A stretch of DNA of 46,622 nucleotides. It comes from a virus. Below the pieces are notes generated by a model. It did not search any database, was not told where the DNA came from, and saw only the letters and a list, made by a program, of their open reading frames with translations. Shown here piece after piece: positions 1-46,622 of the stretch (positions within the stretch are counted from its first letter, which is position 1; the number at the start of each line of letters is the position of its first letter). Location of the stretch: IMG/VR virus record IMGVR_UViG_3300033429_000008, positions 1-46,622 of that record. One strand, written 5' to 3'. The translations under genes were made by a program, and so were the position numbers.

Positions 1-93
1 GGAGGTGAAAATCCTTGCCCAATAGTCATGTTAGTCTTCGGACTATATGCCATACGTTGCAATGACCAACTGCCCACCTGCTTTTTTCAAACT

Positions 94-170
94 ATGTGCG
101 GGGAAGTGTGGCAAGAAACTCTGGAGCGCTTCTGCCAGACGACCTATCTGGTAGATTTATCCCCGCACAT
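94..170 (+). ncRNA. Structured RNA unit B, 11-bp closing helix
   Basis: ATGTGCGGGGA at 94-104 pairs without mismatch with TCCCCGCACAT at 160-170. Inside, TCTGCCAGA (131-139) pairs with TCTGGTAGA (147-155) over nine base pairs including one G-T, closing a 7-base loop. The outer helix and 71-base core are tRNA-sized, but no T arm and no canonical anticodon loop can be drawn, so it is not called a tRNA. It is followed by TTCAAGCC, the spacer that also follows units D and E. Confidence 0.55.
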
Positions 171-181
171 TTCAAGCCAGA

Positions 182-331
182 GCGGCGGCGGCGGAAATTG
201 GTATGGCTGTAATAACGATTAGGTTTAATTGGATTCCGCCTAATATGGTTGCATAAGCATTTATATTGTGAACCCCCTTTTTTAAGGCCATTGAGTCCAA
301 ATCAAAGCAGGTTGAAATCCTGCCCGCCGCA
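182..331 (+). ncRNA. tRNA-like unit C with long internal insert
   Basis: GCGGCGG (182-188) can pair with CCGCCGC (324-330) as an acceptor stem. A T arm directly abuts it: GCAGG-TTGAAAT-CCTGC at 307-323, 5-bp stem and 7-base loop. A331 would be the discriminator base. The 150-base length is about twice that of a tRNA. The middle holds an ATTAGG/CCTAAT hairpin (219-244) and a C/T-rich stretch (273-283). No canonical anticodon arm is visible. It could be a tRNA-like domain of a larger RNA, or a tRNA gene with an insertion. Confidence 0.5.
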
Positions 332-390
332 CTGGTTTTATCAAGCTTTCCAAATCCTCTTTTTCATAAGAGGTATCCTCCTTTTTACGG

Positions 391-422
391 AGTGGGGCAC
401 GGACGCCAAATCTTAGCCCCAC
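391..422 (+). ncRNA. Hairpin D in the structured tract
   Basis: AGTGGGGC (391-398) pairs perfectly with GCCCCACT (415-422) around a 16-base loop. T-rich bases and the recurring TTCAAGCC spacer (429-436) follow. It could also act as a terminator for what lies upstream. A smaller CCTCTT/AAGAGG hairpin sits just before it (356-373). Confidence 0.5.
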
Positions 423-439
423 TTTATTTTCAAGCCTAT

Positions 440-563
440 ATGCGGAGTGGTGGAAGCGTGCCAATATGCACTCATAACGGTTGCGGGAAAAACAACCCCT
501 AACGCTTGTACGAGAAGTCAGGAAGTACCGCACCCTGAAGCAGACGTAGTCCTGCCTCCGCAT
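440..563 (+). ncRNA. tRNA-like unit E with rearranged core
   Basis: TGCGGAG (441-447) pairs with CTCCGCA (556-562), with A440-T563 extending the helix. A near-T arm abuts the 3' strand: GCAG (540-543) and CTGC (552-555), one base short of the arms in units C and F. The sequence CTCATAA (471-477) looks like a methionine-type anticodon loop, but its flanks do not pair. GGTTG (479-483) pairs with CAACC (493-497), and TCAGG (518-522) with CCTGA (534-538). At 122 bases it is too long for a standard tRNA. Confidence 0.45.
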
Positions 564-576
564 TTATTCAAGCCAC

Positions 577-623
577 AGGCCAGCCTAATCTCCTCTCTTT
601 TCCTCATCCACAATGGCTGGCCT
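577..623 (+). ncRNA. 9-bp hairpin with pyrimidine-rich loop
   Basis: AGGCCAGCC (577-585) pairs without mismatch with GGCTGGCCT (615-623). The 29-base loop is almost wholly pyrimidine in its first two thirds. It lies between units E and F and looks like another domain of the same RNA rather than a terminator, since no T run follows. Confidence 0.55.
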
Positions 624-628
624 ATTAT

Positions 629-790
629 GGCCGAGCGGCGTTGAGGGAAACGCCCCAATAGGCTGATGGGGAAAGCTACCTAGAGTATGCGGTAACCGAT
701 AATGCAACGAACATACAGGTCAGCCTTTGAGACTGTTTATCGGCAGTTGATTAGAAAGCTTTCACGCAGGTTCGATTCCTGCCTCGGCCA
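629..790 (+). ncRNA. tRNA-like unit F with 93-base extra arm
   Basis: All parts of a tRNA frame can be drawn: acceptor GGCCGAG/CTCGGCC (629-635 with 783-789), D arm GCGT/ACGC (638-641 with 650-653) with a GG-containing loop, a 17-base arm at 654-670, and a textbook T arm GCAGG-TTCGATT-CCTGC (766-782). Where a variable loop should be, GAAAGCT (671-677) pairs with AGCTTTC (757-763) and encloses a second helix CCGATAA/TTATCGG (696-702 with 737-743). The anticodon-arm loop TAGGCTG lacks the usual T at position 33, so decoding activity is doubtful. Confidence 0.6.
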
Positions 791-813
791 ATACGTTTTA
801 TGGTGAAGCCCCT

Positions 814-874
814 GCCAGCGGTGGGCAAAAACACTGGCTTACTTTTCGAGACCGGGGCGGCTTCGCGTCGCCCC
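814..874 (+). ncRNA. Two hairpins closing the structured tract
   Basis: GCCA/TGGC with GTG/CAC (814-838) is followed by a GC-rich hairpin GGGGCG/CGCCCC (854-859 with 869-874). The second sits directly before ATTTATAGAAAGG, which contains the SD of the gene at 897. It may act as the 3' processing or termination point of the upstream RNA. Several other genes in the window have a GC-rich 3' arm followed at once by T-rich bases and the SD. Confidence 0.45.
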
Positions 875-896
875 ATTTATAGAAAGGATTGGAAGT

Positions 897-1723: not shown

Positions 1724-1856
1724 GGCGGGAGTAGCTTGAATGAGTAAACGGATATATGGTGATTGATTTACAGGATAGTTCAATGCTCTCTAATCCGAGA
1801 GTCCTTAAAGAAACTGATTTCAGATGTTGTAGTAACACAGAGTGGCTACTCCCGTC
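1724..1856 (+). ncRNA. 133-base structured intergenic element
   Basis: GGCGGGAGTAGC (1724-1735) pairs with GCTACTCCCGTC (1845-1856) over 12 bp with a single G-T. Inside lie CTCTC/GAGAG (near 1793-1809) and the possible long-range pair TTGAA/TTCAA. The 5' arm resembles the start of a tRNA, but no T arm abuts the 3' arm. The element ends 8 bases before the SD (TAGGAG) of the next gene, the same placement seen at 1205-1258 and 44655-44733. It may be a processed small RNA or a structured leader. Confidence 0.5.
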
Positions 1857-1876
1857 GCCTTTATAGGAGAATGATT

Positions 1877-10032: not shown

Positions 10033-10142
10033 TTTCCTATCCTTTCAGATAAAAGCCCCCGACGCCGTATGAACTCTGACCAAAGAGCGAAATGTGAACG
10101 CCGGGGACTTGTGTTTGTAATGTTATGGTCAAAGCTCATAAA

Positions 10143-10164
10143 CCGAGGCTGCGTACAGCCCCGG
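10143..10164 (-). terminator. Terminator hairpin after the 10176 gene
   Basis: On the minus strand CCGGGGCTG pairs with CAGCCTCGG around the tetraloop TACG: 9 bp with one G-T. It is 12 bases beyond the stop of the long methyltransferase gene and followed by TTTATG. A second, looser GC-rich pair surrounds 10058-10108. Confidence 0.55.
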
Positions 10165-10175
10165 ATTGCAGGCTT

Positions 10176-43536: not shown

Positions 43537-43549
43537 ATTTTCAAAAGAA

Positions 43550-43597
43550 GCCCCTGCGTTTGGAGGGAGAGGAAAAAGCGAGATAAGACACAGGGGC
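43550..43597. promoter_or_regulatory. GC-rich hairpin in divergent gap
   Basis: GCCCCTG (43550-43556) pairs with CAGGGGC (43591-43597) around a purine-rich 34-base loop. The loop shares GAGATAAG with the structure at 43688-43747. The strand of action is unclear. It may be the leader of the minus-strand gene at 43351. Confidence 0.4.
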
Positions 43598-44654: not shown

Positions 44655-44733
44655 GAACACTTGCAAACGAAACAATCCCACCGGAGAAAAGCAGACATGC
44701 TCTGCACATTTCGCAAGTGTTCCCTCCGGTGGG
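44655..44733 (+). promoter_or_regulatory. Two interleaved 10-bp helices, switch or pseudoknot
   Basis: GAACACTTGC (44655-44664) pairs perfectly with GCAAGTGTTC (44713-44722). CCCACCGGAG (44677-44686) pairs perfectly with CTCCGGTGGG (44724-44733). The order 1-2-1'-2' makes them a pseudoknot or, given the single base between the 3' strands, mutually exclusive. A GCAGA/TCTGC hairpin sits between (44691-44705). The second helix is followed by GCTTTTAT, so it can act as terminator, with the first helix as antiterminator. Confidence 0.6.
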
Positions 44734-44756
44734 GCTTTTATGAAAGGAATTGCGAA

Positions 44757-45023: not shown

Positions 45024-45051
45024 CCCCGGCGGGCTTTTATAGGTGAGGACT

Positions 45052-45687
<636 letters not shown>

Positions 45688-45696
45688 GTGGGGACT

Positions 45697-46170
45697 ATGG
45701 ACAAAATAAATGAAAATGAAGTAGAAAATATCATTGAAAGGCTCAACAGGTCGATAGAGGACGCTATTAAGTATAAAGCATCACTTAAATCCGAGCCGCC
45801 GAAGCTGAGGCATGGGGACTATGGGTATGATGAGCAAAATACTCCTATGGTAGCTGGTAATTTAAATTTAGGACCATATTGCCGTTTTGATACGCAGGAA
45901 AAATATCACCCTGATTACAATCCAATACCGATACATATCGGCAACATATTCGACGACCTTGCCGCGATGCGCGAGGACGTGGAGGGGATTAATTTAGATA
46001 AACTGCATATAGGTACTAATAATCATAGAGATAAAATTTGTTTTGTCGTAAGTGGACATTATTCGTGGCATGAGATAGATAAGGCTGAGCAAATCCATCG
46101 CAAGCTCGGTGCAATGATATTCAATCTCAAGAAAGAGCAAGCCACAGCCAAGAGGAAGGGGGGCAAATGA
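45697..46170 (+). CDS. HGDYGYD-type phage protein
   Basis: The 157-residue protein starts at 45697 after GGTGGGGACT. An N-terminal helix (NEVENIIERLNRSIEDAIKYKASL) precedes PKLRHGDYGYDEQNTPMV, a motif recurring in phage proteins of unknown role. Then come a mixed alpha/beta part (IHIGNIFDDLAAMREDVEGI, ICFVVSGHYSWHEIDKAEQIHRKLGAMI) and a basic end. It overlaps the next gene by 4 bases. Function unknown. Confidence 0.6.
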   Translation: MDKINENEVENIIERLNRSIEDAIKYKASLKSEPPKLRHGDYGYDEQNTPMVAGNLNLGPYCRFDTQEKYHPDYNPIPIHIGNIFDDLAAMREDVEGINLDKLHIGTNNHRDKICFVVSGHYSWHEIDKAEQIHRKLGAMIFNLKKEQATAKRKGGK

Positions 46171-46595: not shown

Positions 46596-46622
46596 GCAGG
46601 TGGTGGCGTGGTAGCCTGACGG
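46596..46622 (+). ncRNA. 5' part of tRNA-like unit A, completed by bases 1-81
   Basis: GCAGGTG (46596-46602) pairs perfectly with CACCTGC at 75-81 if the window ends are joined. GGC-GTGGTA-GCC (46605-46616) forms a D-arm-like hairpin with the usual GG in its loop, two bases after the closing helix as in a tRNA. Past the join, the bases around 3-15 give a short stem with a 7-base loop, and TAGTC-TTCG-GACTA near 32-45 makes a variable-arm-like hairpin. GTTG/CAAC (57-70) is a poor T arm. The 108-base total is longer than a normal tRNA. This is the main evidence for circularity. Confidence 0.5.

Follow-up and report, generated by a model that had tools for sequence, protein, structure and literature searches.

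Among the systems described so far, the t-elements come closest to the RNAs considered here. They are cleaved by RNase P and tRNase Z (PMC4326828), and they are CCA-tailed and not aminoacylated (PMC11658184). Here, a noncoding tract of a bacterial virus is compared with these and other tRNA-like RNAs. We read the tract, with somewhat better than even confidence, as a phage array of tRNA-like RNAs without the anticodon arm, which, by analogy with t-elements, would be released by RNase P and RNase Z and would carry their inserts as cargo.

The noncoding tract across the record ends

The window, that is, the whole stretch of DNA analysed, is the IMG/VR virus record IMGVR_UViG_3300033429_000008 (46,622 bases), and the phage encodes terminase, portal, capsid and tail genes. 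The noncoding tract, about 0.9 kb long, spans the record ends between the last small gene at the right end and the gene 897-1190. Its seven units, A to G, follow one another from 46596 over the joined ends to 790. The first-pass annotation had claimed that the tract continues past the window ends, which is borne out by two relatives: the contig G007:C40 runs unbroken from the window equivalent of 35108 through the ends to 29603, and the gene order of G001 bridges the join, with homologues of 45688-46170 and 2460-2825 flanking the equivalent stretch. The open reading frames of the tract had no tblastn match in the relatives and no gene is supported within it, in agreement with the earlier statement that almost 0.9 kb holds no convincing gene. 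The elements are listed below, with z-scores of the minimum free energy (MFE) computed against 150 dinucleotide shuffles per unit.

46596-46622 (+), unit A, 5' part: acceptor-like GCAGGTGG, 8-bp closure with CCACCTGC; z -1.2, weak alone
1-81 (+), unit A, 3' part: hairpin GTTG-CAATGAC-CAAC at the T-arm position, then TTTTTT
94-170 (+), unit B: 77 nt, 11-bp closure ATGTGCGGGG/CCCCGCACAT, no canonical T-arm; z -5.5
177-335 (+), unit C: 159-nt tRNA-like element; z -2.6
391-423 (+), unit D: hairpin AGTGGGGC..GCCCCACT; z -3.9
440-563 (+), unit E: 124 nt, closure ATGCGGAG/CTCCGCAT; z -2.2
577-623 (+), unit F: 9-bp hairpin with a C/T-rich (anti-Shine-Dalgarno-like) loop; z -4.7
628-790 (+), unit G: member of the tRNA-like family, frame 629-789; z -2.3
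854-875 (+), terminator-like hairpin GGGGCGGC..GTCGCCCC, closing the tract ahead of the gene 897-1190
1724-1859 (+), unit H: further intergenic element, closure GGCGGGAGTAGC/GCTACTCCCGTCGCC, beyond the stretch 1-890 annotated at first; z -2.2

The closing helices of all seven units, 7-11 bp long, are present, as had been proposed in the claim of at least seven strong helices in series. Sixty control windows gave a mean MFE z of -0.1 (sd 1.0), so that energy alone does not make unit A (z -1.2) significant. Canonical or near-canonical T-arms were found only in units C and G, and are absent from A, B, D, E and F; the D-arm CGGCGTGTGGGAAACGC or a near variant is present in unit G and absent from units A, B, C and E. 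Unit C is closed by a 7-bp acceptor (GCGGCGG/CCGCCGC) plus CCAG/CTGG, and its T-arm, GCAGG-TTGAAAT-CCTGC, has a loop that nearly fits TTCRANN. The several tRNA-like domains reported earlier thus come down to two clear ones (C and G) and three weaker ones (A, B and E), D and F being plain hairpins; A, B, D, E and F are no more than candidates for a single shared class.

A terminase search yielded six, then 56, related phages, together with two loci in bacterial assemblies, a Sedimentisphaerales MAG and an Omnitrophota genome, each contributing one. From the whole tract, G007 retains only hairpin D (89% identity over 376-436) and a counterpart of the terminator-like hairpin; the units are thus gained and lost separately. 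In G001, an element (L015:16625-16739) with the same acceptor lies in the same place as unit E. Hairpins whose C/T-rich loops (CCTCC, TCTCCTC) are reminiscent of the anti-Shine-Dalgarno sequence of 16S rRNA occur at 577-623 of the window and at L015 16431-16469 and 16752-16798 of G001. G007 also has an integrase and an attP bearing the 3' end of a host tRNA-Pro: the 32 nt of the attP fragment (G007:C40 9753-9784) recur unchanged as the 3' end of a complete tRNA-Pro(GGG) (C63 24279-24310) on another contig of the same Sedimentisphaerales MAG as the G007 phage. This identity supports Sedimentisphaerales (Planctomycetota) as the host of the G007 phage, and the same host group may be inferred for the window phage.

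Outside the tract, closed elements that finish in CC-TTTAT, or a similar sequence, together with a ribosome-binding site, as do those of the locus L215 described below, lie between other genes at 1206-1256, 1724-1859 and 44680-44735, and genome-wide the intergenic gaps contain 44 closing stems versus 25 expected, on rough gene calls. Two short stretches, 43548-43586 and 10131-10174, are 97-98% identical to G007:C40 7782-7820 and 21877-21920 with diverged neighbouring sequence, and could possibly be a promoter, an origin or an RNA element. Inside the ORF 45043-45687, a low-complexity repeat of the GCCGCCCATGCCGCC type (45340-45620) codes for an Ala/His/Tyr-rich stretch.

A tRNA-like family without an anticodon arm

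Unit G has the acceptor stem, D-arm and T-arm of a tRNA and an unrelated sequence where the anticodon arm would be, as follows.

629-635 (+), acceptor 5' strand GGCCGAG, paired with 783-789
636-653 (+), position 8 and D-arm CGGCGTTGAGGGAAACGC
654-765 (+), variable insert of about 110 nt replacing the anticodon arm and variable loop
766-782 (+), canonical T-arm GCAGG-TTCGATT-CCTGC
783-789 (+), acceptor 3' strand CTCGGCC, then A at position 73

The D-arm CGGCGT..GGGAAACGC is common to unit G (629-789) and the locus L113, and a scan of IMG/VR for it returned 84 stretches. With the D-arm CGGCGT(T)GTGGGAAACGC and the spacer GT or TGT, the acceptor/T-arm frame was found in 30 of 35 distinct IMG/VR loci, as compared with 39 of 700 shuffled downstream sequences (5.6%), a control that answers the bias towards pairing introduced by selecting loci for the frame. 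Other spacers gave the frame in 5 of 34 cases, which is the chance level, with the exception of the TGA variant, whose D-arm CGGCGTTGAGGGAAACGC is shared by unit G and the members L251 and L270. The frame, a 7-bp acceptor plus a 5-bp T-stem with a TTCRANN loop, is present in unit G and 30 other loci. Counted by signature, 32 of 36 testable occurrences have the frame and two more (L222, L253) have it with a displaced T-arm. Matches to GGCGTGTGGGRAACGC without C8 or the third A lie within ORFs and have no credible frame; a relaxed D-arm pattern without C8 gave 21 more matches, nearly all in long ORFs, one of which passes a relaxed frame test by chance.

Each member begins with a 7-bp acceptor, followed by C8-G9 and a D-arm that hardly varies (GGCGTGTGGGAAACGC and close variants). 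An insert of no fixed form comes next, then an A ahead of the T-stem, a canonical 5-bp T-arm and the acceptor 3' strand. The invariance of the D-arm is partly set by the search pattern, for which it was the key, and is not evidence of conservation. The D-loop GGG is retained across the family, the T-loop is TTCGAAT in 15 of 31 members, the A directly 5' of the T-stem is present in 27 of 31, and A occupies position 73 in 19 of 31; no CCA is encoded. An anticodon arm 3' of the D-arm was found in none of the 31 members, against 0.08 expected. Covariation is present: across 30 elements, 99.6% of cells are paired and 11 of 16 pairs are altered on both sides (7 of 7 acceptor pairs and 4 of 5 T pairs in the 30 frames), with 117 double-changed cells observed versus 31 in shuffles, and in slid controls pairing drops to 27-47%.

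The flanking genes of the 31 elements fall in 25 unrelated clusters, and the unit G family was found in about 25 unrelated bacterial viruses. The elements sit between codirectional genes, with 5-35 nt separating them from the preceding stop codon and often 22-150 nt from the following start, and many of them are without a U-run. The inserts are 24-197 nt long, are weakly structured on their own (mean z -0.7) and have no common motif above shuffles; at their own loci no target was matched above shuffles, the longest complement, considered as antisense cargo, being 9.26 versus 9.23 in shuffles. Anti-Shine-Dalgarno loops were rejected as an insert theme, with CCTCC in only 3 of 31 inserts, although hairpin F and the two G001 hairpins also have C/T-rich loops. 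The neighbours L205 and L280, which have the same flanking genes, differ in their inserts, and the differences between the inserts of L230 and L243 preserve a helix.

Known models did not recover these RNAs. At the gathering score, Rfam gave no GOLLD, ROOL or other family over the window scanned as a linear record, which splits unit A, and at E<=10 the stretch 1-1900 gave chance-level matches and a 17-nt T-arm match only (unit G, beta_tmRNA model). ARAGORN found no tRNA in the window, including the rotated sequence and with introns allowed, so that normal tRNAs do not explain the units; intron-containing tRNAs are likewise rejected, none being called with introns to 200 or 3000 nt and no anticodon arm following the D-arm. 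The other members of the family were also missed by ARAGORN and Rfam. A BLAST search with the tract had no match among 50,697 records of isolated phages, and one with the D-arm motif against isolated phages gave only chance-level hits (E>=0.05), a tail gene being the sole place where the exact 17-mer occurred. The D-arm motif was absent from 776 bacterial genomes (Planctomycetota and Omnitrophota), and the hairpin D pattern had no match in IMG/VR. At least unit G is a member of a phage RNA family that is absent from Rfam and was not found in the open-licence papers searched. Such a conserved family, escaping the standard tRNA and Rfam searches, can be recognised by its markers, the 17-nt D-arm signature and strong covariation.

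Comparable arrays were detected in L114, L115, L251, L253, L276 and L282, and single units occur alone elsewhere. In L251, L253, L276 and L282, tandem units are mixed with closed units lacking a T-arm, as in the window. The first-pass annotation had alternatively proposed that expanded tRNA-like RNAs form an array here and may represent a new class, and this part of it is supported by these arrays and by the covariation of the unit G family. An acceptor with a canonical T-arm occurs in L113 (72 nt), L108 (176), L114 (60) and L115 (94). Some tRNA-like elements of the relatives have an anticodon loop shortened to 3-4 nt; G005 has two tRNA-like elements, one of them with a normal D-arm and T-arm and the anticodon arm cut to CTGA-GACG-TCGG, and L114:17872-17942 scores 38 bits as an Rfam tRNA with GATA replacing the anticodon loop. 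L253:6113-6169 (-), a 56-nt tRNA without an anticodon arm, scores 50.4 bits to Rfam RF00005 and could be entered as a tRNA by model-based annotation. In L215, three consecutive gene junctions share the acceptor helix GGGACGG/CCGTCCC and the tail TTTTATT, their interiors differ, and only one of the three has a canonical D-arm and T-arm; this suggests that elements spread within the genome as gene separators while their interiors diverged. Mini elements of about 46 nt also lie between genes (L034 (-) 271, L042 (-) 6811, L113 (-) 2563 and L100 (-) 7979). In each, a stem of 6-7 bp closes the element and a short bulge separates it from the T-arm hairpin GCCGG-TTC[AG]A[CT]T-CCGGC, so that the shape resembles that of a minimal RNase P substrate.

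Proposed processing and cargo, and alternative explanations

The acceptor, D-arm and T-arm form the tRNA elbow, which is measured by the enzymes of tRNA maturation. Because the phage elements keep exactly the parts that RNase P and tRNase Z read, they would be cut from the phage transcripts. An element would be transcribed together with the neighbouring phage genes, host RNase P would cleave its 5' end, and RNase Z or exonucleases would trim its 3' end, to which CCA may be added. The products would be a stable small RNA and separated mRNA pieces. The insert would most likely be cargo shown on the tRNA scaffold, a role that we infer and that could be wrong; the elements cannot be codon adaptors. 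Units A, B, D, E and F, being without a canonical T-arm, imply that this processing model may not cover the whole array, and some acceptors in the family reach 8-11 bp, a less than ideal length for RNase P. More tentatively, these RNAs may make up a widespread, phage-only class of natural tRNA-scaffold RNAs, in which a tRNA frame lacking the anticodon is processed by host tRNA enzymes into stable small RNAs carrying fast-evolving cargo, probably for counter-defence or host control. Should RNase P and RNase Z indeed cut the frame, phages would have independently evolved both the tRNA scaffold of laboratories and the tRNA punctuation of organelles. The elements give a direct handle on the old question of why phages keep tRNA-like genes that are unable to decode.

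Since the inserts are weakly structured, free of motifs and without a local target, the putative cargo may be filler. This leads to the explanation that has a small, real chance of being right, namely punctuation only, in which the elements would mark where gene cassettes meet in polycistronic phage mRNA, the insert would be neutral filler and the RNA, once excised, would do nothing further. The spacing from stops and starts, the plainness of the inserts and the three L215 junctions with one closing helix and tail around different interiors would all suit it; however, inserts of 50-200 nt persist in compact genomes, the insert changes between L230 and L243 keep a helix, and gene-free arrays exist (the window, L115, L276).

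It is unlikely that the elements are decoys or substitutes against tRNA-directed defence, titrating enzymes of the acceptor, CCA or elbow or resisting anticodon nucleases. Phage tRNAs are known to evade anticodon nucleases via loop mutations (PMC10264068), the elements keep the acceptor, elbow and T-loop and have lost the anticodon loop, and rapid insert turnover would suit an arms race. However, without that loop an element is neither bait for an anticodon nuclease nor a replacement for a cleaved tRNA, which makes decoys of this kind improbable because the target itself is missing, and a linked defence or counter-defence gene was not identified; decoys for acceptor- or CCA-directed toxins are a possibility.

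Intrinsic terminators with oversized loops are a quite improbable explanation: several units have U-rich ends (TTTTTT in A, TTTATTTT in D, TTTTATT in L215) and hairpin D and the hairpin at 854-875 look terminator-like, but a terminator needs no 7-bp acceptor, D-arm signature or T-loop, many members have no U-run, and a consensus scan of 1-2000 found 3 terminators versus 1.8 expected, which is no excess. DNA-level recombination sites, either attP-like tRNA fragments or attC-like cassette ends, are very improbable. The integrase and tRNA-Pro-bearing attP of G007 and the common ends of the L215 elements at gene-cassette borders speak for them, but an attP has the 3' part of a tRNA only, the elements have the 5' acceptor strand and D-arm with a covarying acceptor, and acceptors vary between phages; a temperate-phage attP tRNA fragment was also rejected for the window, as the window proteins that were scanned showed no integrase. 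Finally, one giant ornate RNA of the GOLLD or ROOL type, which the first-pass annotation had put forward, agrees with the tract in length, phage location and number of helices and is hardly credible in view of the negative Rfam search, the separate gain and loss of units among relatives and the single units found elsewhere.

Comparison with known systems

GOLLD and ROOL are likewise phage-encoded structured RNAs, often near tRNAs (PMC12286853), whereas the present tract has no sequence or structure match to them and consists of small separate units instead of one large fold. With tRNA (RF00005) the family shares the 7-bp acceptor, the D-arm with a GGG loop, the TTCRANN T-loop and position 73 being mostly A. 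It differs in having no anticodon arm, C8 instead of U8, A48 and inserts of up to 197 nt, and canonical tRNA was rejected as an identity for lack of any complete cloverleaf: ARAGORN was negative and no anticodon arm is present in 31 members. Allo-tRNAs and other non-canonical tRNAs are similar in being odd-armed tRNA-like genes from metagenomes (PMC7609411), but allo-tRNAs keep the anticodon and have 8/4 or 9/3 acceptor domains (PMC7609411), whereas the phage family is 7/5 and lacks the anticodon arm.

The tRNA-like domain of tmRNA resembles the family in its acceptor and T-arm, its long insert and the absence of the anticodon arm. The family is far shorter, however, has no conserved tag frame and no consistent G3-U70, and its D-arm is stemmed; tmRNA was rejected because the match is limited to the 17-nt T-arm of unit G, no insert motif is held in common and acceptor pair 3 varies.

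The t-elements (of plant mitochondria and the Haloferax 5S rRNA leader) and mascRNA are, like the phage elements, tRNA-like parts of longer transcripts that do not decode. They are recognised by RNase P and RNase Z (PMC4326828, PMC11658184), and the phage elements would be recognised in the same way. In contrast to t-elements, the phage elements are without the anticodon arm, carry a variable insert and have one D-arm across unrelated phages.
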